A DNA stretch of 50,204 bases from Verrucomicrobiota bacterium. GTDB lineage: Bacteria; Verrucomicrobiota; Verrucomicrobiia; Opitutales; Opitutaceae. Made by a program: the position numbers and the translations under genes. Under the pieces are notes generated by a model. That model searched no databases, was not told where the DNA came from, and saw nothing but the letters and a program-made list of their open reading frames with translations. Shown piece after piece: positions 1 through 15,467 of this stretch (the stretch's first letter is position 1; the number at the start of each line of letters is the position of its first letter). The stretch spans positions 1-50,204 of the forward strand of contig JAUWBF010000017.1 of the NCBI GenBank assembly GCA_030601755.1, read 5' to 3'.

Positions 1-1350
<1,350 letters not shown>

Positions 1351-1359
1351 TCGACCTGC

Positions 1360-1899
1360 TCAACTCGGTGTGTCGGTGCAGTCGCAGTCCAAGCACGCGC
1401 CCTTTGCGCAGTCGCCGCAAAAACCCTCCAAGCGTCGGCGCAGTGTCGCCCGTGCGCGATGCAGTGCCACGCTGGCCGCTCCTCCCGACATCCCGAGCGA
1501 CCGGGCAACCTCCACCACCGCCTCATCGTTCAATTCGACGCGGCGCAACAGCTCGGCATCGCGCGGTTTTAGTTCCGGCAGAAGTCGCTCGAAACAGGCG
1601 CAGGCCGATCTTTCGATCTCTTCATCGCGGGAACCGACCTCCGTCATCCAGGCTTCGTCACGGCGCACGTTCGCCGAACGACTGCGCACATGGTCGATCA
1701 TGGCATTGCGCAGCAGGCGATAAAACCAAGCCGTCAGTTTCTCGGCATCGTCCACCTCGCCTGCCGAACGCATCGCCTTCAGCAGTCCGTTTTGCAGCAC
1801 GTCATCGGCATCGGCTTCGTTGCCTAGACGCGAAACAAGAAACGCGCGAAAGCGAGAACGCTGGGCCAGCAAAGAGTCGAGGGAGCGGACGGGTTCCAT
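1360..1899 (-). CDS. ECF sigma factor with CxC linker and Cys-rich C-terminus (CorE-like)
   Basis: Predicted RNA polymerase sigma factor, 179 residues from ATG 1899; an in-frame ATG at 1926 would add 9 residues and neither has a clear Shine-Dalgarno site. Region 2 (about 15-75, with DADDVLQNGLLKA and AWFYRLLRNAMIDH) and region 4 (about 105-155) are recognisable. Two features are unusual: a CxC pair at residues 100 and 102 in the linker between regions 2 and 4, and five cysteines at 161, 164, 169, 172 and 174 in the tail. This is the arrangement of CorE-type (ECF44) sigma factors of Myxococcus, in which the cysteines bind Cu or Cd/Zn and switch the sigma factor without an anti-sigma protein. 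The convergent copper ATPase gene fits that role. Metal identity is inferred. Confidence 0.85.
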   Translation of the reverse strand: MEPVRSLDSLLAQRSRFRAFLVSRLGNEADADDVLQNGLLKAMRSAGEVDDAEKLTAWFYRLLRNAMIDHVRSRSANVRRDEAWMTEVGSRDEEIERSACACFERLLPELKPRDAELLRRVELNDEAVVEVARSLGMSGGAASVALHRARATLRRRLEGFCGDCAKGACLDCDCTDTPS

Positions 1900-2093
1900 G
1901 TGGTTTATGAAGCAGAAGGCACCCATCAGATTAGTGCCCGGCCCTTGTCTTGCAACCCGAGTGATGGCCTCACCCGAATTGCTCCGATGTATTTTATTGC
2001 CAGATATACAATGAGATAGCCTAGGCCCGCCGAAGGTTTTGTAAAACGTGAGGGGTTCGGCCGACCGGCGGTGTATTATTGGAAGAAACCACC

Positions 2094-2408
2094 ATGAAAA
2101 CCCATCCCCAAGATGACGCCCTTCGCCGGTTACTCCAGCTTTGGACGGTCGAACCCCGGCGAAATCCCGGATTCCGGGCGGCCGTTTGGGCACAGATCGA
2201 CTCCGCGCGTCGCATGCCCGCGACCTGGAGCGGCTGGCTGAGATTAAACGTCGCCCGTGTGTCCTATTGCGCGGCGGCCAGCATCGTCTTCGCCGGCACC
2301 GGAGGCGGCCTGCTTGCCGCCTCTCAGGCCAACCGCGAACGCGAGCAGCTTATCCAGCGCTACGTCGTCAGCATCGATCCGCACCAGCAGGTCAACGCCC
2401 CCCGCTAG
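2094..2408 (+). CDS. Small single-pass membrane protein, candidate anti-sigma factor (CnrY-like position)
   Basis: 104 residues from ATG 2094, with GGAAG at 2081-2085 as a possible ribosome site; a TTG five codons upstream is also in frame but unneeded. The first half is basic and polar (roughly 1-58), followed by one hydrophobic segment (about 60-85, ending GTGGGLLAAS) and a short polar tail. Cytoplasmic N-terminus plus a single helix is the layout of short anti-sigma factors such as CnrY. No family is recognised from sequence alone; the role is inferred from its place as first gene of a set that continues with a periplasmic sensor-like protein and an ECF sigma factor. It is divergent from the Cys-rich sigma gene. 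Confidence 0.65.
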   Translation: MKTHPQDDALRRLLQLWTVEPRRNPGFRAAVWAQIDSARRMPATWSGWLRLNVARVSYCAAASIVFAGTGGGLLAASQANREREQLIQRYVVSIDPHQQVNAPR

Positions 2409-2410
2409 CC

Positions 2411-2917
2411 ATGAACTACCGCTGGATCACCGCCGGTGCGATCATCGCCCTCGCCCTTCTGGCCGGGGGCGCGTCCTACCTCTGCTTCCACCACACCATG
2501 TCGGTGTCGGCTGGACAGGGCCACGACTCGCTCATGTGGGTGCGCCACGAGTTTAAGCTCTCCGGAGAGAAACTCGCCAAAGTGGAGGCGCTCCATGAAG
2601 CCTATGAATCGGTTTGTGCCGAGCACTGCATCGCCATCGCCGAATCCCGCGCGGAACTGAAACGCTTGCAGGAGGCCAAGGCTGCGCCGGCCGACATCGA
2701 GGCCGCCTCCGCCAAAGCCAAGGCCGTTGATGCCCGCTGCATCGCCAGCACCGAAGCCCACGTCAAGGAAGTGGCGGCGCTCATCGGCGGTGAAGAAGGC
2801 CGTCGGTATCTGTCCATCGTGCTTCCTCGCGTGGTGATGTTCGACCACGCCGGCCCCGCCTCGCTCGACCTGCATTCCTTCACCACTTCCGCGCATGACA
2901 TCCCAGCCGGAAAATGA
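2411..2917 (+). CDS. Membrane-anchored periplasmic metal-sensor-like protein (CnrX/Spy-like)
   Basis: 168 residues, starting 2 bp after the previous stop. An N-terminal membrane segment (about 5-27) leads into a largely helical periplasmic domain rich in Glu, Lys and Ala. Candidate metal ligands are visible: HH and M shortly after the membrane helix, then VCAEHC near residues 68-73, a further Cys near 105 and His in the C-terminal tail. This shape matches the CnrX/heavy-metal-resistance family, whose members form periplasmic four-helix hooks that bind Ni, Co or other metals and control release of a CnrY-type anti-sigma factor. The gene order (membrane protein, this gene, sigma factor) is that of cnrYXH in Cupriavidus. 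Metal specificity cannot be read from the sequence. Confidence 0.7.
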   Translation: MNYRWITAGAIIALALLAGGASYLCFHHTMSVSAGQGHDSLMWVRHEFKLSGEKLAKVEALHEAYESVCAEHCIAIAESRAELKRLQEAKAAPADIEAASAKAKAVDARCIASTEAHVKEVAALIGGEEGRRYLSIVLPRVVMFDHAGPASLDLHSFTTSAHDIPAGK

Positions 2918-3679: not shown

Positions 3680-4423
3680 TCATCCGTGGTTCAAAGGTTC
3701 TGGCTCCCGGTTGGGGCTGTCTGGTGCTTTCCGCCTCTTCTTTCCGGGCGTTTCGGTTGGCTCAGGCAAGTCGTGTTCCGTGGCCGGTGGTTCGTCTTTC
3801 ATTGCGGCAACAGAGTCCGGTGTGACCGCGAACCACTTCTGAGCTTGGGCATCTGGGGCGAGTTCTCGGTAATGCTTAAAGATAATGTTCGGAGAATTGC
3901 CGCTATCCAGCGCGACCCGGTTCACATCTTTGTCCCGCGCGACCCGGAAGGTGATGTAAGAGTGGCGAAGAACGTTTTGGGGCCATCCAAGTTTCAGCTT
4001 TTTGCCCAAAGCGGTTACTTCCTTCCAAAGCTCGTCTTCTTTCATGACGAGTCCCTTCCCGAGGCGGGCAAGTAGCCACTCGCGCAGGTTGGCTTCCAGC
4101 GGAACTAGACGGCGAGAAGCGGTCTTGGTTTGTCCCGCCTTGAGCTCGATAAAGCCGTCCTCAATGCGAACCGCCTCCCAGTTCAGACGATGAATCTCCG
4201 CCGAGCGGAGTCCGGCAAACGCACCGAGAGTAATGAATGGGATCAACTCCGATGGTGCTGCCTTGAGCAGTCGCGCGATTTGATCCGGAGTGAAGATTGA
4301 GATGTCGTTGTCTGTGACTTTCGCCTTGGCGAGTCCCTCGGCTTCCGTTGGCAGGTGCTTGGGCAAATACCGCCCTCGGCTTCGTAGCCACCCTCGAGAC
4401 ACCTCATAGCTAAAAAAACGCAC
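3680..4423 (-). pseudogene. Tyrosine recombinase, 5'-truncated
   Basis: Up to 247 residues holding essentially only the catalytic half of a phage-type integrase. Visible catalytic elements are the first Arg (AFAGLRSAEIHRL), a beta-hairpin Lys (QTKTASRRLVPL), the NVLRHS box and KHY near the end, so the active-site set is nearly complete. The N-terminal core-binding and arm-binding domains are absent: the frame opens with a GTG at 4423 lying inside the hairpin terminator of the neighbouring operon, so no sensible start exists. The complete integrase at 12001-13251 is about 416 residues and of the same broad family, with LRHT/LRHS boxes and KHY. I infer a remnant of an earlier integration or of element rearrangement. 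Confidence 0.75.
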
Positions 4424-5144: not shown

Positions 5145-5885
5145 TCAGTTCCTTCCGGCCAAGCCGACGTAGCCGTCCATCAGGCCGTGCAGGGCTTGGG
5201 TGCGCGCGGGGAGCAGGCCGAGGTTTCCCTTCAGGGCTTCGGTGAAGCCGTTGAAGAGCGACCAGACCGTGCGCTCGCGAAACACTTCATGGCTCGGCTC
5301 GCGCCACTCCTGCACGACCCTCGGCAGCACCGTCACCGGGCACACGCCAACGTCCACCGCCCGGACCATGAGGTCGTGGGCGTCGCGGTCGGCGAGGGTG
5401 TGCCCCATGTAGCGGTCGATCCGCTTTTCCTGGCAGTGCCACGACTCCTGAAGCTGGCCGATGGCCCGCTCCGTGAGCAGCGGCAGATCGCGGCCGATGT
5501 TGCGAGTATGCTTTCGCGACAACTCCACCTCCCCGTGGAAGCTGAGATTGTCGCAGACGAACACCTGCGCGCCAGCCACGAGTCCCGCCGGGAAGCGTTT
5601 GTCGTGGCTGTTGCGCAGGCCGAGAACCAGCGAGTAGTCGCGGTTGCTCCGCCCGGTCTCGACCTGGATCAGGCCGAAGTAGCGGTCGCCGCCATGACTG
5701 AGCGCGTGGGCTTGGTTGACGATTTCCAGGCTGGCCGCCCGGAGCGCCCGCTCCACCTGCTCGACGAGCCGGAGGTGCGGGATGGGCGTCCAGGTGGGCG
5801 TGGAGATGGGTGTGGGAACAGAGCGCACTTGTGCGCGCTCGACTGCGGCAGCGCCGCAATGAAGGACGAGATTGCAGGATTTCAT
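5145..5885 (-). CDS. DUF932 family protein
   Basis: 246 residues. The central block LVLGLRNSHDKRFPAGL, then QVFVCDNLSFHGEVELSRKHT (about residues 85-125), is the signature of the DUF932 (phage/plasmid-like, TIGR03299-type) family. Such proteins are common on plasmids, phages and integrative elements; their biochemical role is not established as far as I know. Start ATG 5885 lies downstream of a hairpin terminator, so the gene begins its own transcription unit with the two small genes that follow. No membrane segment is present. Confidence 0.8.
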   Translation of the reverse strand: MKSCNLVLHCGAAAVERAQVRSVPTPISTPTWTPIPHLRLVEQVERALRAASLEIVNQAHALSHGGDRYFGLIQVETGRSNRDYSLVLGLRNSHDKRFPAGLVAGAQVFVCDNLSFHGEVELSRKHTRNIGRDLPLLTERAIGQLQESWHCQEKRIDRYMGHTLADRDAHDLMVRAVDVGVCPVTVLPRVVQEWREPSHEVFRERTVWSLFNGFTEALKGNLGLLPARTQALHGLMDGYVGLAGRN

Positions 5886-6497: not shown

Positions 6498-8054
6498 TCA
6501 GACCGTGACCTCGCGGAGCGCGCGGATGTTTTTCTTCAAGGCCTCATGATCGCGCTCCAGCGTCCGGTAGGAACGCTGCTGCTCTTTCACGAGGGCCTGG
6601 ATGTTCGCGAACTCGTTACCGGCCTCGCGCAACAAATCGCGGAGGCGGTTGAGCCGCTGGTTGATTGCTTCCACCACCGTTACCGGCTGGGCCGGAGCGG
6701 CAGGGATGCGGGAAACGACCACGACGGGGGCGTCGTTGTCACGGGTTTCACGGGCGGGTTGGTTTTGGGTGTTGGTGGCGACCATGGTGGTGGGTGGGTT
6801 GTGGGCGGGATTAGGATTATGGTTTTCGCTGACGGGTTGATTTTCGCTGACGGGAACGACCGGCATCGGGCTTTCGCTCGACGGGTCGGAAGAGGTGGGC
6901 GCTTCGGGCGCGGGAGATGGTTCGGCGGACTCGGCGGCAGGGGGCATTTCTGCCGTCACGGGCGGGGCGGAGTTCTCGACTCGCACCGGCATCCAGAGAT
7001 GCACCCGGCTGTAACCGGTAAGCATCACGGGGCTGACGGCATCGCGAACGCGCAGCTCACGGGAGTTGGTCTGCAAGGCGCTGAGGAAGAGCTTGGCGTT
7101 GAAGCCGACACTCACCGGGGCCTTGCAAACGATGTCGCTGTGTTCGAGCGCAACGTGGACTTTCGGTCTGCCGGGCGCGGTGTGCAGGCTCGCGCCGTCG
7201 GAGTCGATGCGCAGCACGATGGGGCTGTTCGTGTCCTTAAATCCCGGCAGTTTCGGCAGCACGGCTTTGATCCGCGCCACGTCCACTTCGCCGAGATGCA
7301 CGAGAGCGGGATACTCCTCGATGCGCGGGATCACCTGCTGGTAGTTGGGAAAATTCCCGTCCAATAGTTTCGTGGTCCAGCGCCAAGGGCCGACGCTGAT
7401 CTGCGCGAAGGAGCGTTCGTGCTCGGTGGTCCAAATCCACAAGTCGGCGGCGAGATCCGGCAGCATGTCGATGACGCTGCTGTTGGGGAAAATCGCGCCG
7501 CCTTCGCGGATCGGCAGTTCGAGGCTGTTGCGGCGATAGAGCTGACGCCCGTCCGTCGCCACCACCGCGTGAGCGTCCAGAAGGACGCTGTTGAGGAGGT
7601 AGCGACTGCTGTCGGTGCTCGCGCAGCCCAGCGCCTCTTTCATGGCGGCGATCACGCCCTCGGGCATGGCGATGACCTCGCCCTCGGCAGTCGGTGTCGC
7701 GGGGTATTCCGCGAGGTCGATCAAGTCGAAGGGCAAGGTCACCGGAAGTCCCGCCACCTGGTAGGCCAGGGTCGGAGACGGTCCGCCGGTGAGGACGAGT
7801 TCGCTGCCGGTGTCGGCCTGTTTGGCGGCGTTGGCCAGCAACTCGTAGGGCACGAGCAACTGGGTCCAAGCGTCGGAGGCGGCCACACTCTCGTAACGAA
7901 TAACCTGATCGAGATCGGTGCGCTCGAAGTGCAGGAGCGTGTCACAGCCGGTGACGCGCACGCAGTGCAGGGCCGGCATGTGATGACGGCCAAGTTTAAG
8001 AACGCGCAGACCGGTGAGGGCCTCGCGGAGGGAGTCTTTGGAGAAACGAATCAT
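6498..8054 (-). CDS. DnaN-like sliding clamp with Pro-rich linker and coiled-coil tail
   Basis: 518 residues from ATG 8054 (a GTG at 8096 in the upstream hairpin region is in frame but less likely). Residues about 1-365 follow the three-domain bacterial beta clamp: a NSVLLDAHAVVATDGRQLYR block like the conserved clamp motif around VATDGHR, DGNFPNYQQVIP like GxFPDYxxVIP, and a final strand YSRVHLWMPVR like the clamp C-terminus. Unlike a normal clamp (about 370 aa) it continues with a Pro/Ser/Glu-rich linker (about 370-455) and a basic coiled coil of about 60 residues. Clamps tether polymerases and repair enzymes to DNA. This copy is element-encoded, so it may serve element replication or recruit element proteins. 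The clamp assignment is firm; the role of the tail is unknown. Confidence 0.85.
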   Translation of the reverse strand: MIRFSKDSLREALTGLRVLKLGRHHMPALHCVRVTGCDTLLHFERTDLDQVIRYESVAASDAWTQLLVPYELLANAAKQADTGSELVLTGGPSPTLAYQVAGLPVTLPFDLIDLAEYPATPTAEGEVIAMPEGVIAAMKEALGCASTDSSRYLLNSVLLDAHAVVATDGRQLYRRNSLELPIREGGAIFPNSSVIDMLPDLAADLWIWTTEHERSFAQISVGPWRWTTKLLDGNFPNYQQVIPRIEEYPALVHLGEVDVARIKAVLPKLPGFKDTNSPIVLRIDSDGASLHTAPGRPKVHVALEHSDIVCKAPVSVGFNAKLFLSALQTNSRELRVRDAVSPVMLTGYSRVHLWMPVRVENSAPPVTAEMPPAAESAEPSPAPEAPTSSDPSSESPMPVVPVSENQPVSENHNPNPAHNPPTTMVATNTQNQPARETRDNDAPVVVVSRIPAAPAQPVTVVEAINQRLNRLRDLLREAGNEFANIQALVKEQQRSYRTLERDHEALKKNIRALREVTV

Positions 8055-8164: not shown

Positions 8165-9787
8165 TCAGGCCGCCGCCAGCATGGGCAGCGAACCGAGGCC
8201 GAGTCGGAGATTGGTGCCGAAGAAACGCGCGGCGTCTTCGTCACCGAGTTCGTCGGTGGCTTCCTCGCCGGACTTGATCCAGCCGCGTAGGCGTCCGACC
8301 TCGACGTTGAGCGCGAGGGCGAGCTTTTGGTGGATGCGCAGGTGCAGGTTGCCGTTCAGAAAGGCGCGGACCTCGAAGAGCACTTCGTTGCCCCCACCGA
8401 AGAGAGCGCGGAAGGCCTCCAAGCTGCCGGTGCTCCAATGCGAACGTCCGGGACGCGACAAGCGGTAGTCGGTGGTGTCGCCCCGAAATCCCAGACCGTG
8501 CGCGACGGTCAGCAAATCGCGGAGAAACTCCGAAGCCGATTCCGACAAGCCTTTCTCCCACGAATACCCGCGCCCGATGCCGCCCACGTTTGCCAGGACG
8601 AGCCGATATTCGAGCGCGATGTGGGTGGGCTTTTCCTGGTTGTAGCGCCAGCGGTCGTGGACGAAGGGCCGCTGGTTGGACCGGTAGTTCCGGACGTTGG
8701 CCTTGGCCACCATCTGGTCGAACAGGTCGAGCAACTGCTCGTCGAGGTAGCCGTTGGCGTTCTTCAAGACCCAGATCAGGACCGCGTGGATGTTCGTGAG
8801 CGTGAAATCCACGTTGCCGCTGGTGTTGAGCCGATTGAGGAGCGCGTTGCGTTTCTTGGTCGTGAGCCGGTTGGTGACCGACTCCATGTTGGAGAACAAC
8901 TCCCGCCAGTAGAGGTTGCGCAGCCCGGCGAGCCGGGCCTTGAGGCAGCCGAGGATACGGGCGGGATGGACCTCGAATTCACGCAGGAGATCGGCGTCGA
9001 GTTCACGCACGAGGTCGTAGTTACGCCGGACGTGGTCGAGTTCCTCGTTGTAGAGGGCGACCAAACGCTCCGGGTAGTTTACGCCGACCACGAGAGCTTC
9101 GAGCTTGGGGTTCCTCTTCGGCTCTGTCTTGCGGTCGGAGTCCTCAGATTTGGGCGTTTTAAACTTCGCATTCAGATCCGCGAATTGCTCCGCGAAGAAA
9201 CGGTCGAAGGCGTCGTCATGCTCCGTCGATAGCTCGACGCGCAGGAGGTGAACCTTGGCCCGGGCCGCGCGATCCTCTGACGCGAGGAAATCGAAATGGC
9301 CGACGACCTGGGTGCTGGCTTCCCGGTAGCGAAGAGCCTTCGCGATAGACGCCGAGTTGCCCCAGCGCTCGGGAATGACGAGGTAGATCAACCGGGACGC
9401 AGACTCACGGATCACCTTCACCGTCCATTCCACGAATTCGGAATACGGCGGATTGCAGAAGGTGAGATCGACCTGCTTGGAGACCAGCGACTGTTCCTGA
9501 AATTCCGTGCCGACGATGAAGATGTCGGGGGACATCTGCTCGCAGAGCAGGGTGGATTTCTCGATGGCGTAGAGGCTGCGCAGGTCGGCCTTTTCACGCA
9601 GGGCGCAGAGCACTTTCCCGGAGCCCGCCCCGATGTCCAAGGCGGACTCGATGCGGCCGTAGTCGGAAAAACGCTCATCGCGGAGGTAGGCGAGATCGGC
9701 GACCAGACGGTCGATGATTTCCTGGGTGGTGGGGTAAAATTCAAAGTCTTGGGCGGACTCTTTGAGGACGGAGACAAGTGGGTTCAT
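8165..9787 (-). CDS. DUF4942 DNA adenine methyltransferase
   Basis: 540 residues. The N-terminal domain is a class I SAM-dependent methyltransferase: the SAM-binding motif ALDIGAGSGKVL (about residues 49-60), then the catalytic NPPYSEF motif (about 112-118) typical of N6-adenine or N4-cytosine enzymes. A charged helical middle region (about 200-360) leads to a C-terminal domain (about 365-530) with RPFVHDRWRYNQEKPTHIAL and LNGNLHLRI, which matches DUF4942, a domain usually found fused to such methyltransferases on plasmids and phages. It is monocistronic, with hairpin terminators on both sides. No restriction endonuclease is adjacent, so it is better read as a solitary or anti-restriction enzyme. 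The target sequence is not predictable. Confidence 0.88.
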   Translation of the reverse strand: MNPLVSVLKESAQDFEFYPTTQEIIDRLVADLAYLRDERFSDYGRIESALDIGAGSGKVLCALREKADLRSLYAIEKSTLLCEQMSPDIFIVGTEFQEQSLVSKQVDLTFCNPPYSEFVEWTVKVIRESASRLIYLVIPERWGNSASIAKALRYREASTQVVGHFDFLASEDRAARAKVHLLRVELSTEHDDAFDRFFAEQFADLNAKFKTPKSEDSDRKTEPKRNPKLEALVVGVNYPERLVALYNEELDHVRRNYDLVRELDADLLREFEVHPARILGCLKARLAGLRNLYWRELFSNMESVTNRLTTKKRNALLNRLNTSGNVDFTLTNIHAVLIWVLKNANGYLDEQLLDLFDQMVAKANVRNYRSNQRPFVHDRWRYNQEKPTHIALEYRLVLANVGGIGRGYSWEKGLSESASEFLRDLLTVAHGLGFRGDTTDYRLSRPGRSHWSTGSLEAFRALFGGGNEVLFEVRAFLNGNLHLRIHQKLALALNVEVGRLRGWIKSGEEATDELGDEDAARFFGTNLRLGLGSLPMLAAA

Positions 9788-9865: not shown

Positions 9866-10063
9866 TCAGTGGCCTCCGCCGCGACGGCGGGGGCCGAAGT
9901 GGGAGATGTGTTTGAAGGACGGACGGTCAGGCGCGGACGGGTTGAGCCAAACGTGCCATGCGACCACGAGGGCCGCGCAGACGATCAACGCGAACCACAG
10001 TCCCGCGCCCACGAAGACCCCGGCGACAAAGGCGCCGAGGCAGGGGAAGAGATGCGTCTTCAT
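9866..10063 (-). CDS. Small membrane protein, 65 aa
   Basis: Starts MKTHLFPCLGAFVAGVFVGA and has one long or two short hydrophobic segments (about residues 6-40), followed by a basic tail ending HFGPRRRGGGH. The ATG at 10063 overlaps the end of the preceding gene (10060). No family recognised. It is the last of three tiny membrane-associated proteins translated in tandem behind the Fe-S nuclease. Confidence 0.6.
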   Translation of the reverse strand: MKTHLFPCLGAFVAGVFVGAGLWFALIVCAALVVAWHVWLNPSAPDRPSFKHISHFGPRRRGGGH

Positions 10064-10254
10064 CGGTGGAAAAGCTGCTTCACCGCGTAGCCCACTCCGA
10101 AGAGCAGGATTCCACTGGAGAGCAGCATAAACGGGCTGAGGGTTTGCTCGGCTTGCTGGGTCATGGCCTGCGCCCAAATGAAGGGCGTGATGGTTGACCC
10201 GGCGATGTAGGCGAGCACCGCCACTGCGACAAAACGAAGGATCAGGCCGGGCAT
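10060..10254 (-). CDS. Small membrane protein, about 64 aa
   Basis: Two hydrophobic helices (about residues 3-22 and 40-58) separated by a polar loop (TQQAEQTLSPFM), ending KQLFHR. A GGAGG lies 8 nt upstream of the ATG at 10254, which favours this start; the ATG at 10260 is in frame and overlaps the preceding stop as ATGA. The two-helix, about 65-residue shape resembles holin-like or VirB2-like small proteins, but no family can be assigned. Confidence 0.6.
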   Translation of the reverse strand: MPGLILRFVAVAVLAYIAGSTITPFIWAQAMTQQAEQTLSPFMLLSSGILLFGVGYAVKQLFHR

Positions 10255-10256
10255 GG

Positions 10257-10463
10257 TCATTTCCTCCGGTTGCGGCTGGCGATGACGAGTCCGGCGGCAC
10301 CGCACACCGAGCAGAGCACCCCACACACCCCGAGCCATTTGAGGGCCGAGGCAAGCTTGGGCGCGTCGATGGTGGGCGGAGGCGGCGGCTTGCCCCCGTC
10401 GCAACCGACGAGGCCGATCACCACGCAGGCTACTACGGCCAGAAGGATGATACGGGTTTTCAA
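10257..10463 (-). CDS. Small putative lipoprotein with TTG start, 68 aa
   Basis: The start is probably TTG at 10463, which overlaps the stop of the nuclease gene as TTGA; it gives MKTRIILLAVVACVVIGLVGC, a clear lipoprotein signal with lipobox LVGC. A GTG at 10490 would put nine extra residues before the signal. After the Cys comes a Pro-rich stretch (DGGKPPPPPT), a second hydrophobic helix (about 40-60) and a basic end (ASRNRRK). A lipid anchor plus a C-terminal membrane helix is unusual. Function unknown. Confidence 0.6.
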   Translation of the reverse strand: MKTRIILLAVVACVVIGLVGCDGGKPPPPPTIDAPKLASALKWLGVCGVLCSVCGAAGLVIASRNRRK

Positions 10464-11326
10464 GCCGCACCGCCTTTCCACGCCGAGCACTCCGAGCGGT
10501 GTTCACACCACCCGCAGTGCATACCCGGTGACGGGTAATAGTGATCGTTGGCCACGCCGTTGGCGTAGGTCTCGACCAAGCGGGCGTAGCGGTCTCGTTG
10601 CACCTGGTCGGGCGCGGGCACGCGATGCGAAATCACCTTCGGCGTCTTGGTTTTCACGAGGAAGACCAACTCGTTGCCCGGCGACGGTTCGCCAGTGGCT
10701 TCCTCGATGAGGAGCGAGTAGGTCGTGAGCTGGATCTCGTGCAACCAGGCTTCGAGTGACAGGTCGGGCGTGCTCGCCACCGTCTTGTAATCGACGGCGG
10801 TGAGGTCGGCCTCGACCAGGTCGATGATGCCAAGAAGCGGAAGCGCGAGGGAGGGGAGTTCGGCCCGAAGGCTCAGCTCCACCCCCATGGGCTTTTTCTC
10901 CGGCGCGATCTGCTTCGTGTTCAAGAAGGCCCGCAGGAGCGGTTCTCCCTTCGCGCGCAGCGTGTTTCTGTCCTCGTCGCTCTCGAAGGCCACCGGCTGG
11001 TTGTGCTCCGGGTGGTCGAAGGCCTTTTCGTAGGCGGCAATAACGGCCGTCTCCGACCGGTCGCCGTCACGCCAGCGGGCCTTGTTGTAGTGCTGGAGCC
11101 CCGCGTGGACCGCCCGGCCGAAGTGGAGGCTAGGGCCGAGCGGTTTGGGGAGCGCCATCACTTTCTCGAAATAGAACCGAAGCCGGCAGGTGAGGAACGA
11201 TTTGAGGCGCGACGCGCTGATGTATTCCAGCGGGTCGCCACCGAGGATCGTCTCGTCGTGCGGCAGGTGTCCGTTCGATCCGGCGGGCGGGGCCGGCGTG
11301 GGAGGGGGCGGAGGCGTGGCGATCAT
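10460..11326 (-). CDS. PD-(D/E)XK nuclease with Fe-S cluster motif (Cas4/AddB-like)
   Basis: 288 residues from ATG 11326, which overlaps the previous stop as ATGA and has GGGGGAG upstream. The N-terminal block YISASRLKSFLTCRLRFYFEK carries the first cluster Cys. The nuclease core shows LLGIIDLVEA and AVDYKT, giving the Asp and D-x-K of the PD-(D/E)XK fold, followed by QLTTYSLL. Three cysteines close the protein (CGWCEHRSEC), completing the 1+3 cysteine layout of a 4Fe-4S cluster seen in AddB, Cas4 and RecB-family exonucleases. The first about 25 residues are Pro-rich. With no helicase or Cas gene nearby it probably acts in element recombination or DNA processing. Confidence 0.88.
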   Translation of the reverse strand: MIATPPPPPTPAPPAGSNGHLPHDETILGGDPLEYISASRLKSFLTCRLRFYFEKVMALPKPLGPSLHFGRAVHAGLQHYNKARWRDGDRSETAVIAAYEKAFDHPEHNQPVAFESDEDRNTLRAKGEPLLRAFLNTKQIAPEKKPMGVELSLRAELPSLALPLLGIIDLVEADLTAVDYKTVASTPDLSLEAWLHEIQLTTYSLLIEEATGEPSPGNELVFLVKTKTPKVISHRVPAPDQVQRDRYARLVETYANGVANDHYYPSPGMHCGWCEHRSECSAWKGGAA

Positions 11327-11889
11327 TGGCGGCTCCCCCTTCCGGCGTAGGCACGGGAGTAGCCCCCGCGCCGTTCGCCCCCGACGTTGCCACGACCGCG
11401 CCCGTTGCCGGGGCCGCCGTGGGTTTCGATGAGTTCGTCGATGAGCCCCGAGGCTTGCAGCTTGTTGAGCTGTTTGACCCCGGTGCCGTAACGCTGGCGG
11501 GCCAGCGCATCGACCTCGCCTTTGTCGAGCTGATGCTCCGCGACGATCTTGAGGATCAAATCGCGTTGCTTGTCCGAGCACCGCCACGGCTCGCTGTCGC
11601 CACCACCGTTGGGAGCGGAGGCGGACGGCTGCGGGGCGCTGGGGTGGTTCGGATGGGCGGCGCCCGGGCGGGATGCGGGGGCGGGGGCGACCGTCTCGCC
11701 GGGCACGAAGCCCGGGTTGATGATCTGCCCGTCCACCGCCTCCTGGAGTCGCGCGTAGAGGTCCGCGCTCGCCTGGGGCAGCTGCGTGAGGTCGGTCAAC
11801 TCGGCGCTGACCTCCACGCTGTATTGATGAGACGAATACTGGGGCAGCCCCAGCTTCTTGACGTAGGTGGCCTTGATGAAGACGGCCAT
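11323..11889 (-). CDS. Hypothetical DNA-associated protein with RG-rich tail, 188 aa
   Basis: Three parts are visible: an N-terminal domain (about 1-60, MAVFIKATYVKKLGLPQYSS onward), a Pro/Ala linker (about 65-98), and a helical domain (about 100-155, starting CSDKQRDLILKIVAEHQLDK) of the kind attached to phage recombination and single-strand DNA proteins. The last 30 residues are rich in Arg and Gly, suggesting nucleic-acid contact. It is first in the unit and overlaps the Fe-S nuclease gene by ATGA, so a pair of a DNA-binding protein with a nuclease is plausible. No family can be named with confidence. Confidence 0.68.
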   Translation of the reverse strand: MAVFIKATYVKKLGLPQYSSHQYSVEVSAELTDLTQLPQASADLYARLQEAVDGQIINPGFVPGETVAPAPASRPGAAHPNHPSAPQPSASAPNGGGDSEPWRCSDKQRDLILKIVAEHQLDKGEVDALARQRYGTGVKQLNKLQASGLIDELIETHGGPGNGRGRGNVGGERRGGYSRAYAGRGSRQ

Positions 11890-12000: not shown

Positions 12001-13251
12001 TCAGGGGGCCGTTGCGGGGGTGAGGCGTGACTGCTCCTTCGATTTGGCACGGCGTGCTGCTTTGGGGGCTCCATCAACCCCGGCGGGGTAAATCTCCCAA
12101 AATGCCTTGGCTTCGTCCGGAGCGACCAAGTTCAGGTAGTGTTTTTTGATCATGCTCTCCGAGTTGCCCGCCTGTAACGCGGTATCGGACATGCTGCGGA
12201 ATTGCCCGACGTGCATGCTGATGAACGTGTGGCGCAAGACATCATGGCCGAGGGCGAACTTCTGGCGCACGGCGGTGACCTCATCGAAGGCGTTGGGCGG
12301 TAAGATCGGGTATTTTTCTAACGGGTATGCTCTGAGCCAGGACTTTAGGTTGGGCTGGAGGGTGATTTGTCTCACGTCCTTGGTCTTTGCGATTTCGGGC
12401 GTGATGCGGATGACGCCGGTCTCGAGGTCGATGATGCGAGTATTGTCCTTGAGTTGGCCAATACGCACCAACTCCCCGCCGTTAATTGCGGGACGAATTC
12501 CGGCAAACAGGGCCAAGCTGAAGTAGGGCACAAGGAAGCCGGCCGGTTTGGGTTGCTTACCGGTGCCGGTGTAGGTTTCCAAAAAAGCCATCAGTTCGCG
12601 GGCGAGTTTGGTCGAAATCACCTCGGGAAGGCCCCGGGCAAGTTTAACGGGCTGAACCTCTTCGGCAGGATTGTTGGCGATCCATTTTCGAGGCGGCTTC
12701 TCGCACCACGTGAAGAAAGCGCTTATGTCCGCGCGGGTGTTGTTCCAGGATTTACCCTTCAAGTTCCGGCTCTTGAGGAAGGATTGGATGTCTTCGCCGC
12801 TGATGGCGGGCAGGGCACGATCTTTGGTGAACACACCGAAGGCCTTCAGCGAACTCGTGTAGTCATCTACCGTGCTTTGGCGGACGTGGGGCTTACGGTC
12901 ATCGATGAACTGCGGGTAGGCCTCGGTGACGGAAAGCTTGGTGAGCGTGTCCCGGTAGGTGTCGAGATACCACTCGACCGCCGCGAGAATGGATCGGTCG
13001 CCCAGTCGCTTGAAAGCAGCTTCTGCTTGGCGAAGTTGCTCGGCGGTGAGGTGGGTGACGCTGGGGCGTAGCTCTTGGGAGCAGTTGATTGCCTCGACCT
13101 CTTTGCGTTGCCGATAGCCCTCGGCCTCTTCCTTGGTCGGGAAAAACTTCCTGATTCGGCTGCCGTTTAGCCTGCCTTCCACCTTCCACTGGGTGTAGGT
13201 GTAGCCGTTGGCGGTGACCTTGATCCGTTTGGTGGAAAATACGGAACTCAT
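12001..13251 (-). CDS. Tyrosine recombinase/integrase of the tRNA-Glu element
   Basis: Complete 416-residue phage-type integrase. The N-terminal about 60 residues look like an arm-binding domain (VTANGYTYTQWKVEGRLNG), followed by a core-binding domain (about 100-190) and a catalytic domain (about 205-395). Catalytic elements are Arg in FAGIRP, Lys in AKTKDVR, the DVLRHT box and Tyr in KKHYLNL. The gene starts 74 bp from the 3' end of tRNA-Glu, the usual arrangement for elements that insert in a tRNA gene. It should mediate integration and excision. A truncated relative lies at 3680-4423 in the same orientation. Confidence 0.93.
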   Translation of the reverse strand: MSSVFSTKRIKVTANGYTYTQWKVEGRLNGSRIRKFFPTKEEAEGYRQRKEVEAINCSQELRPSVTHLTAEQLRQAEAAFKRLGDRSILAAVEWYLDTYRDTLTKLSVTEAYPQFIDDRKPHVRQSTVDDYTSSLKAFGVFTKDRALPAISGEDIQSFLKSRNLKGKSWNNTRADISAFFTWCEKPPRKWIANNPAEEVQPVKLARGLPEVISTKLARELMAFLETYTGTGKQPKPAGFLVPYFSLALFAGIRPAINGGELVRIGQLKDNTRIIDLETGVIRITPEIAKTKDVRQITLQPNLKSWLRAYPLEKYPILPPNAFDEVTAVRQKFALGHDVLRHTFISMHVGQFRSMSDTALQAGNSESMIKKHYLNLVAPDEAKAFWEIYPAGVDGAPKAARRAKSKEQSRLTPATAP

Positions 13252-13324
13252 ACTTTGGTCCGGGAATATTGCCCTGGCCGTTGGCCAATATTCCAGCCAA
13301 ATTACCTCTGTCAGAGGTGGAAAT

Positions 13325-13401
13325 TGGCGTCCCCACGGGGATTCGAACCCCGGTTACATCCGTGAAAGGGACGTGTCCTGACCGGGCTAGACGATAGGGA
13401 C
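13325..13401 (-). tRNA. tRNA-Glu (anticodon UUC)
   Basis: Read on the minus strand, acceptor GTCCCTA pairs with TGGGGAC, discriminator G is followed by an encoded CCA (13325-13327), the T-arm carries GGTTCGAATCC, and the anticodon stem CGTCC/GGATG encloses the loop CTTTCAC with anticodon TTC. Its 3' end faces the integrase gene, so it is the likely attachment site of the element. Confidence 0.95.
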
Positions 13402-13492
13402 GTGCTGACCGGAATGGCGAAACGTAGGTCTCGACCGCTCTCGCGCAAGGCAAAAAATGCGGTCTTTTCCCACGGGCAAATCCACCCCGAAA

Positions 13493-14584
13493 TCAGACCT
13501 TCACCGGCGCGCCGGCCTCGTCCGAGGCGAAGCAGGCGTCGAGCACCTTCTGCACCTCCGCGCCACGGGCGAAGTCGGGCTGGTCCTGCACCCCCGTGCG
13601 GATTGCCTTGATGAAGCGTTCGTAGTTGTTCGGCGTCGGCTTCACCTCGACCTCTCGCCAAGCGGACTTGTCGAGGTCGTCGCCGGTGCAGATACGGTAG
13701 CCGGCGGTGGTCTTCTCGGAGTCGATCTCAATGGTGCCCTTGGTGCCGGCGATCTTGAGGAAGAGCCGGTTGCTGTGGCCGCCGCACCAGCGCGTGGTGT
13801 GGATCGTGCCGAGCGCGCCGTTGGCAAACTCGACCGTCATCACCGCGGAGTCGTTGGCGTCGAGCTCGTAGTCGCCGATGCGGTTGCCGGGGGCCTTGTC
13901 GAAGGCCTTGAGGCGGCAATACACGTTCCTGATCGGGCCGGCAGGGAACGTCGCGAAGTCGACGATGTGCACGCCCACATCGCCGAGCACGCCCTTGCTG
14001 CCGTGCTTCGAGGACAGGCGCCAGAGCCAGGCGGGCGTGGTGCGCCAGTCGCCCCAGACCTTGCTCGCGAGCCAGGCCTGCAGGTAGCTGGCCTCGACGT
14101 GGCGGATCTCGCCGAGCGCGCCGCGACGCACCAGCGTCTCCACGGCCTGGATACAGGGCCAGTCGCGGTAGGAGAGGTTGACCATGTTGATGACCCCGGC
14201 CTTCTTCGCGGCGGCGACCATGCGCTTCGCGTCGGCGTGGTTGAGCGCGAGGGGTTTTTCGCAAAGCACGTGCTTGCCGGCCTTGAGACAGAGGATCGAG
14301 AGCGTGGCGTGAAACGCGTCGGGTGTGACGATGCTGACGGCGTCGAACTCCGCGCCGGCCAGCGCCTCGGCCACGGTGGTGAAGGCGGCGGGGATCTTGT
14401 GCTCGGCGGCGAATTTCTCGGCGCGCTCGCGGTCAACGTCGACCGCGGCCACGACCCGGCAACCACGGATGGCCGCGAACCTGCGCGCGTGGCTGTTGGC
14501 CATGCCGCCGGTGCCGATGATGGCGAGGCGGACGACGGACGATTTGCGGGACGGGGCTTTCTTAGCGGGGGATTTTTTCGACAT
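13493..14584 (-). CDS. Gfo/Idh/MocA family oxidoreductase
   Basis: 363 residues from ATG 14584. After a basic lead (MSKKSPAKKAPSRKSS) the Rossmann motif LAIIGTGGMANSHARRF binds NAD(P), and the family EKP motif appears as KHVLCEKPLAL (about residues 100-110). The C-terminal substrate domain has GDVGVHIVDF, with the conserved His region of this family. Such enzymes oxidise or reduce sugars, inositols or other polyols. It lies downstream of a ThuA-like gene, a pairing common in Verrucomicrobiota and linked to carbohydrate use. There is no signal peptide, so it is cytoplasmic. The substrate is unknown. Confidence 0.9.
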   Translation of the reverse strand: MSKKSPAKKAPSRKSSVVRLAIIGTGGMANSHARRFAAIRGCRVVAAVDVDRERAEKFAAEHKIPAAFTTVAEALAGAEFDAVSIVTPDAFHATLSILCLKAGKHVLCEKPLALNHADAKRMVAAAKKAGVINMVNLSYRDWPCIQAVETLVRRGALGEIRHVEASYLQAWLASKVWGDWRTTPAWLWRLSSKHGSKGVLGDVGVHIVDFATFPAGPIRNVYCRLKAFDKAPGNRIGDYELDANDSAVMTVEFANGALGTIHTTRWCGGHSNRLFLKIAGTKGTIEIDSEKTTAGYRICTGDDLDKSAWREVEVKPTPNNYERFIKAIRTGVQDQPDFARGAEVQKVLDACFASDEAGAPVKV

Positions 14585-14696
14585 GGCGATGAGATGGGTT
14601 GGAGGAAGGCGCGCTGGTGCCGCGATCAGGAAACCGCTGCGCGCGAGGTGGCGTTGCAACGGGAACCGGTTGTCGGCGCGACGCGAACCGCCGGGC

Positions 14697-15467
14697 TTAT
14701 TTGTGACCGACGGTGGGACGCGCGTTGGCCTCGGCGTCGGCGGGGAGCGGCTCGAGCGGCTTGGCGTTGGGGCAGGCGTCGGGGATGCACACGGTGGCAC
14801 GGGCCCAACGCACGGCGTTGACGATGACCTTTTGCACCTCGGTCTGATGGTAGGTCGGGTAAGTCTCGTGACCGGGGCGGAAGTAGAAGATGCGACCGTT
14901 GCCGCGCTGCCAGGTGGCCCCGCTGCGGAAGACTTCTCCACCGGTGAACCACGAGATGAAGATCAACTGGTCGGGCTCGGGGATGCCGAAGGGCTCGCCA
15001 TACATCTCCTCCTGCGGGATGACGAAGTGCTCGCCGATGCCCTGGGTGATGGGGTGGGCGGGATTGATGTTCCAGATGCGTTCCTTGTCGGTGGACTCTC
15101 GCCACTTGAGCGAGCAGGTGGTGCCAAGCAGGGCCTTGAAGATCTTCGCGTAGTGCGCGGAGTGCAGCGCGACCAGACCCATGCCCTCGAGCACACGGGT
15201 CTTCACCTTGGCGACGATCTCATCCTTCACGTCGCCATGCGCCATGTGCCCCCACCAGATCAGCACGTCCGTCTCGGCAAGCACGTCACCGCCGAGCCCA
15301 TGGTCGGGCTCGTCAAGCGTGGCGGTGCGCACGATGATGTCGGTCTCCTTGCCGAGAAACGCGGCTATGGTCTTGTGCATGCCTTCGGGATAGATGGCGG
15401 CGACCTTGGGATTCTTTTTCTCGTGGCGAAATTCGCCCCAGACGGTGACGCGGATGGGAGTGCTCAT
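14697..15467 (-). CDS. ThuA-domain protein (glutamine amidotransferase-like fold)
   Basis: 256 residues from ATG 15467. Visible family features are [23 protein letters not shown] near the N-terminus, [12 protein letters not shown] (about residues 66-77), [10 protein letters not shown] (about 98-107), and a C-terminal block [16 protein letters not shown]. The family is named for trehalose utilisation and is common in sugar-degradation clusters, though its activity is not well defined. It sits 112 bp upstream of the Gfo/Idh/MocA gene on the same strand and is divergent from an AraC regulator, which suggests a small regulated catabolic operon. Confidence 0.85.

Follow-up and report, generated by a model that had tools for sequence, protein, structure and literature searches.

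The sliding-clamp gene of a genetic element in a Verrucomicrobiota bacterium (positions 6498–8054, minus strand, of the window, i.e., the whole analyzed stretch of 50,204 nucleotides) very probably encodes two proteins: from the sequence, one is predicted to be a clamp ring with a coiled coil on a tether, the other the same coil in free form. This reading follows from a conserved ATG in the linker between ring and coil, an excess of Shine–Dalgarno motifs in front of it and the existence of copies that have lost the ring. As a rule, sliding clamps are bare rings, and few machines of life are more highly conserved. Here, computation supports the composite architecture of the protein, the conservation of its tail, selection signals on the internal start and the genomic neighborhood of the gene. 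An original prediction for this DNA had proposed an element-borne clamp with a tethered coiled coil, and this is supported; what it missed is that the tail recurs across a family of elements and that, very probably, a free protein arises from an internal start.

Architecture of the tailed clamp

Three parts can be recognized in the 518-residue protein, whose ATG lies at 8054. Residues 1–360 (6975–8054, minus strand) are predicted to form a beta-clamp ring subunit: PHROG 947 (DNA polymerase processivity factor) matches residues 1–360 with profile positions 4–366 of 368 (E 1.5e-25), a profile combining the window protein with 20 relatives hits beta clamps in the PDB, the best of them over positions 1–358, and the mean pLDDT per ten residues in the AF2 model is 85–97 across this part. 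Among the Foldseek matches listed for the model, 50 of 50 are beta clamps, including that of Escherichia coli (2pol_A, TMt 0.83). The modeled protein accordingly has a three-domain clamp fold over about 360 residues, which bears out the clamp motifs previously noticed in the first 365 or so. The clamp is, at the same time, distant from the chromosomal type: PF02768 finds one other clamp in the same genome and no match to this one at E 0.001, and against TIGR00663, the equivalog of chromosomal DnaN, it scores 51.1 bits, under the cut-off of 137.65. It has no match among defense-system families.

Partner-pocket residues are kept: of the 13 columns that are invariant in an eight-row alignment including E. 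coli DnaN, seven are residues that we take to belong to the pocket (L155, G174, L177, P242, V247, M362 and P363). As these are retained, the ring probably still binds partner peptides, and there is no sign of the tail taking the place of such peptides. Behind the ring, residues 361–459 (6678–6974, minus strand) constitute a Pro/Ala/Ser-rich, disordered linker (22 Pro among 99 residues; pLDDT below 60 in nine of ten ten-residue blocks), in line with the flexible, Pro-rich linker noticed earlier. Residues 460–517 (6504–6677, minus strand) are modeled as one 58-residue helix, with pLDDT blocks of 88–93, falling to 80 at the end. The description of this tail as a basic coiled coil holds in a mild form: it has 12 K/R and 9 D/E (pI 10.0), and over 70 tails, the window's included, hydrophobicity peaks at a period of 3.5 residues and the heptad a/d positions are 82% hydrophobic versus 24% elsewhere. 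Profile hits in relatives point to the same helix.

It had been suggested that the tail could occupy or block the partner pocket, or fend off the host polymerase. The tether does exit the ring directly behind MPVR, the strand bordering the pocket, but the invariance of the pocket residues in the eight-row alignment is what would be expected if partners still bind. The window's linker is long and disordered, and linkers vary among tailed clamps from 23 to 99 residues and also in sequence; one of 99 residues does not force docking. This use of the tail is thus credited with a very low probability, and a ring that remains open to partners, with a coil on a flexible tether, is preferred.

Distribution of the tail

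A search of 387 genomes of the phylum with the window protein returned, among the matches listed, ordinary clamps and longer relatives in open frames of about 440–620 aa. The same coil, with no internal gaps, ends 20 other clamps, with variable linkers in between, and 19 of these 20 are 18–26% identical to the window protein (53% in the remaining one); conservation of an ungapped coil on clamps so divergent places the tail beyond chance. A scan of genome contigs added 79 loci, kept out of 87 relatives, but as one of its two patterns was drawn from the tail it favors tailed clamps and biases the tailed share upward. A tail profile made from 21 proteins matches the C-terminal end of 83 clamp ORFs, a count that takes in the window and the profile's own members, and of 70 after near-copies were removed. 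With these 70 non-redundant cases, most of the fetched element-borne clamps of the phylum end in the tail. Run over the 387 genomes, the tail profile finds at least 93 places in at least 59 genomes, a lower bound as at most 16 candidates were scored per genome. The tailed clamp with a putative internal start is thereby found here to be recurrent in many distantly related elements of one phylum.

The 93 places divide into 79 in open frames of at least 400 aa and 14 in shorter frames. A domain shared with other proteins was considered and rejected upon reading 13 of the 14 short-frame places (all but G176), which proved to be clamps cut by the end of a contig, clamps with frameshifts or deletions, decayed clamps and a single tail gene on its own. 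Two tail matches in long frames are weak (G097:C32, E 4.8e-4; G386:C47, E 9.3e-4). One genome, G011, has ten tail-profile matches, suggesting that such elements may exist in many copies there. Tailed clamps also occur in genomes labeled as other phyla, namely a Robiginitomaculum MAG (L129; weak, 26 bits) and a Desulfomonile MAG (L113), reflecting either transfer or binning error.

Chromosomal clamps of the phylum present a different picture. PF02768 detects a clamp in 143 of 144 genomes. Of its 150 matches, 143 have open frames of 364–412 aa, and the 30 best-scoring chromosomal clamps fetched all stop 1–4 residues past the clamp domain. A tail that is a general trait of chromosomal clamps, which would have refuted the original prediction, is rejected by these frame lengths and by the 30 of 30 fetched without it; the one weak exception is G317:C19. 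Seven PF02768 matches fall outside 364–412 aa: G125, fetched, is without a tail; G158, G007, G025, G094:C56 and G317:C55 are not among the tail-profile matches; and G317:C19 (L237; ORF 797–2194, plus strand, 466 aa) combines a PF02768 score of 29.7 bits (cut-off 27) with a weak tail match, making it a possible intermediate by sequence.

Nor does the tail appear in viral or plasmid clamps covered here. Scans of viral contigs gave 14 clamp loci, several of them partial, with the tail in 0 of 14, on which ground a phage origin of the tailed clamp was rejected. Clamps in phage records match the window clamp at 22.7–28.5% identity among the matches listed (20 of 28 records), and no match extends past residue 363 among those listed for phages (again 20 of 28 records) and for plasmids (20 of 38); a second tailed clamp searched against plasmids had no match. 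Thus, the window clamp resembles the phage processivity factors of PHROG 947 over residues 1–360, yet its tail is absent from the phage matches listed. Of nine element clamps scored as untailed, L063, L085 and L111 run up to a contig end, L072, L089 and L131 are broken, and L052, L121 and L124 are truly tail-less. In a clamp tree that took in 32 of the 70 tailed rows, element-type clamps are separated from the 16 chromosomal and four of the five viral ones by a branch supported at 100/100. A single origin of the tail was rejected on this tree, where the tailed label needs 10 changes and is not monophyletic.

A probable internal start in the linker

An in-frame ATG lies inside the linker in 69 of the 70 tailed clamps, the exception being L035, which has no linker Met. 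Initiation there would yield a free coiled-coil product of 68–131 aa in the relatives (median 85). A Shine–Dalgarno match of at least 5 nt precedes the internal ATG in 53 of 69 cases, as compared with 50 of 67 at the main starts and 28 of 447 at the remaining ATGs within the clamp domain; in the 30 chromosomal clamps such a motif stands at 5 of 137 Mets in the C-terminal half. When synonymous codons are permuted gene by gene (n=300), the count is 27.9 ± 3.4 of 69, with a highest value of 37.

The signal was followed through clustering. With one representative per 60% cluster the motif is found in 27 of 43 versus 14.2 ± 2.7 in permutations (highest 22), while at a length of at least 6 nt the 12 of 43 merely equal the highest permutation. 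With one representative per 40% single-linkage cluster, 8 of 15 versus 4.8 ± 1.4 (highest 9) constitutes a weak excess, perhaps because lineages lacking Shine–Dalgarno motifs weigh more among 15 coarse clusters.

Once five rows without one of the two starts are set aside, the main and internal starts concur on the motif in 57 of 65 cases (present at both in 52, at neither in five) and are discordant in eight; one of these eight, L097, was scored at the wrong Met and has its motif at the proper one. In L039, L107 and L117 the motif is at the main start and none is at the internal start, and L098, L107 and L117 lack it internally though their neighbor genes use it (2/4, 3/4 and 1/2, respectively). 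Neighbor genes carry Shine–Dalgarno motifs in 170 of 352 cases (control 28/285) in the 59 loci with an internal motif, and in 15 of 74 (control 4/68) in the 11 loci without one. Folding around the internal ATG has a small effect over all 69 sequences (mean z 0.27, 62% positive). Taken at sequence level, these patterns point to a conserved internal start with initiation signals, the excess being weak at the coarsest clustering.

One might suppose instead that the gene makes a single product, in which the tail is only a tethered coil and the linker Met and its Shine–Dalgarno-like codons derive from a KEE..M peptide or from composition. The linkers are indeed rich in P, T, E and A, a composition that often produces words like AAGGAG; the synonymous null by itself reaches 27.9 of 69, and the excess at the coarsest clustering is weak. 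Against this, the observed 53 of 69 exceed all 300 permutations, and the internal motif is in another codon phase in three of the 59 cases with a match of at least 4 nt, so that a favored peptide is not the whole explanation. Moreover, the window's own family is without the KEE peptide before the ATG, yet keeps the position of the ATG and a dip in structure around it, and two copies without most of the clamp retain the start. A single product is therefore unlikely, and two products remain our preferred reading.

In these two copies, L229 and L230 (the latter, judged by sequence, the same locus as L097), most of the clamp is gone, yet AAGGAG(G), the ATG and the tail remain in frame. A third locus, L232 (G123:C20:37500-42500), has a free-standing tail gene of 87 residues behind its own AAGGAG (2337–2597, plus strand), with no clamp match within the 5 kb fetched around it; its C-terminal end differs from that of other tails. 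L225, L233 and L234 look decayed. The ring-less copies show the predicted short reading frame standing alone; they come from fragmented genomes, and the truncated forms as well as the solitary tail gene may be relics in decay.

Two further accounts have a bearing on the same motif. In the first, ribosomes pause at the Shine–Dalgarno-like word and let the ring fold before the coil emerges, with no internal initiation. The placement of the site between two domains would suit such a pause, but a pause does not call for an ATG, which 69 of 70 linkers have, or for an unstructured ATG lacking a Shine–Dalgarno motif, and the free-standing copy uses the word as a start; there is little reason to favor it, and its probability is put very low. 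In the second, adjacent clamp and coil genes were joined by loss of a stop codon and the old start, now unused, is kept by inertia. This would account for a start and motif at the join, and tail-less element clamps (L052, L121, L124) do exist; however, without selection the start would hardly have survived across clamps that are 18–26% identical and whose linkers cannot be aligned, and neither the synonymous excess nor the 57 of 65 agreement between main and internal motifs favors an inert remnant. Such a fusion relic is hence judged quite improbable, and a start that is in use, giving a second product, is preferred.

The lineage of the window

In the window itself the proposed internal start codon is Met424 (6783–6785, minus strand), which lacks a Shine–Dalgarno motif and from which a free coiled coil of 95 aa (6498–6785, minus strand; 10.8 kDa, pI 10.0) would be made. 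The linker holds two further Mets upstream, Met370 and Met397; Met424 was chosen over them because the other nine intact genes of the family have an ATG at that position. The family was gathered from 252 genomes, of which nine matched at E <= 1e-15, the window's own included; it comprises 11 places, with ten intact genes after L153, which diverges after residue 353, was left out. An ATG stands 82–96 residues before the end in all ten (eight read MVA), and the family as a whole is without a Shine–Dalgarno motif there. Neighbor genes in the window likewise rarely have one (1 of 18; control 2 of 17).

What the family has in its stead is a particular composition and weak structure: the 30 bases before the internal ATG are 77–90% A+C (90% in the window, 6786–6815, minus strand, a weakly structured stretch by composition and folding), and in ten of ten genes the RNA near the ATG folds less strongly than synonymous permutations do on average. 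A scan along nine genes, a near-copy having been dropped, peaks at the ATG (z 1.6, 9/9) and drops to between −0.1 and 0.4 at 45–60 bases from it, with lesser bumps at +75 (z 0.81, 8/9) and −135 (z 0.78, 5/9). Codons near the internal ATG are kept in 6 of 8 cases versus 282 of 402 elsewhere in the closest pair, which is not clearly above, there being too few sites.

Neighborhood and a possible Red-like module

The gene lies, as had been proposed, in an element; an integrase, a tRNA-Glu, a nuclease and a methyltransferase-like gene are found with it. In the window's family the gene order runs from the small protein through the PD-(D/E)XK nuclease and the small ORF to the clamp and DUF932, all on the minus strand in the window. 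The small protein (11323–11889; 188 aa) is modeled with a C-terminal three-helix domain (residues 101–160) that may resemble the C-terminal domain of lambda Red-beta: its three best structure matches are all of this domain (Z 8.5, 8.1 and 7.8; next 5.1), the first with rmsd 2.3 over 59 residues. These values are under the Z of 13 that the tool advises for helical bundles, among which lower scores can be common, and the corresponding Foldseek E is above 0.5 (0.56). The exonuclease (10460–11587) matches PF12705 and PHROG 69, and we take it to belong there and not in the lambda exonuclease family; its ORF runs into the end of the gene upstream, and as the homology begins about 90 residues in, the annotated start is probably wrong and the true one probably lies inside the ORF. 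The small ORF upstream of the clamp (10060–10506) is matched in nine of ten family loci searched, and the DUF932 protein (5145–5885) is placed in the module by family match and neighborhood.

Over the 69 tailed loci, the Red-beta-CTD-like gene is found in 57, the nuclease in 49, DUF932 in 44 and at least one of the three in 60; in the 40 loci longer than 9 kb the figures are 37, 34, 29 and 37, respectively, the three profiles having been built from members in some of the loci counted. A clamp beside an exonuclease and a Red-beta-CTD-like protein suggests, from gene order and models, a clamp-tethered, Red-like recombination module.

The explanation that we consider likely as a whole is that of a two-product clamp gene, with the proposed coil assembly serving as a recombination hub. 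The first product would be a clamp of the beta type, its partner pocket intact, to which a coiled coil is joined through a long flexible tether, and the second the same coiled coil, free, from the in-frame start inside the linker. In lineages that use Shine–Dalgarno motifs the internal start would usually be served by one, and in the window's lineage by an unstructured A/C-rich stretch instead. Tethered and free coils would assemble together, and the ring on new DNA would become a docking hub for the exonuclease and the Red-beta-CTD-like protein of the element, with the free coil as linker, stabilizer or competitor that sets the ratio. The second product, the tethering, the coil–coil assembly and the use as a hub are what we infer from the above patterns.

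A more specific version is put forward tentatively, as it is more doubtful than probable: a clamp with a second subunit encoded inside itself, whose ring-plus-coils assembly, built from one gene in elements across the phylum, might keep a Red-like recombinase and the exonuclease attached to DNA that has just been replicated, with free coils cross-linking or extending the tethered ones, such that recombination of the element would be tied to its own and not to the host's clamp. Apart from this version, a clamp family with a conserved coil and, very probably, a free copy of it from the same gene would constitute a new control over what gathers on a clamp, and it offers a direct test of whether a dedicated clamp can hold recombination proteins at replication forks. 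The second protein would escape any gene finder that assigns a single product to each reading frame.

Comparison with known systems

With chromosomal DnaN (TIGR00663; 2pol) the window clamp has the fold, ring length and partner-pocket residues in common; unlike it, the window clamp adds a linker and coil and is borne by an element, with a separate, ordinary clamp gene elsewhere in the genome. E. coli beta* is a short form of DnaN from an internal start. The in-frame internal start is alike in both, but beta* is part of the ring, whereas the proposed short form in the window would be the coil without the ring. Nested genes are also described for cas8/cas11, e.g., Cas11b of Haloferax arising from an internal in-frame Met, according to PMC11899642. 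A small protein made via an internal in-frame Met would be common to both, while the proteins and their purpose differ and the present case is drawn from sequence. In the clamp literature, no tailed or nested clamp is described among the matches listed, as far as titles and the beginnings of abstracts go. The lambda Red/SynExo pair offers the closest parallel to the neighborhood: by the title of PDB 6m9k the C-terminal domain of lambda Red-beta binds the exonuclease, and in the window module the exonuclease gene adjoins the gene of the candidate Red-beta-CTD-like protein. The window module differs in that a clamp and DUF932 belong to it and in that no annealing domain was identified in it.

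Borders and cargo of the element

At one end of the element a tyrosine integrase (12001–13251, minus strand; family match) adjoins a tRNA-Glu(ttc) (13325–13401, minus strand), the likely integration site; L033 is likewise beside a tRNA-Glu(ttc). A second copy of the 3' end of the tRNA-Glu, as an integration repeat, was not found within the window. At the other end is a second, apparently truncated tyrosine recombinase (3680–4423, minus strand; 247 aa). The upstream neighbor of the clamp is a DUF4942 methyltransferase-like protein (8165–9787, minus strand), with a relative in one of 29 neighborhood loci searched: a distant element, L045, carries it at 12986–14893 (plus strand) with 34% identity to the window protein.
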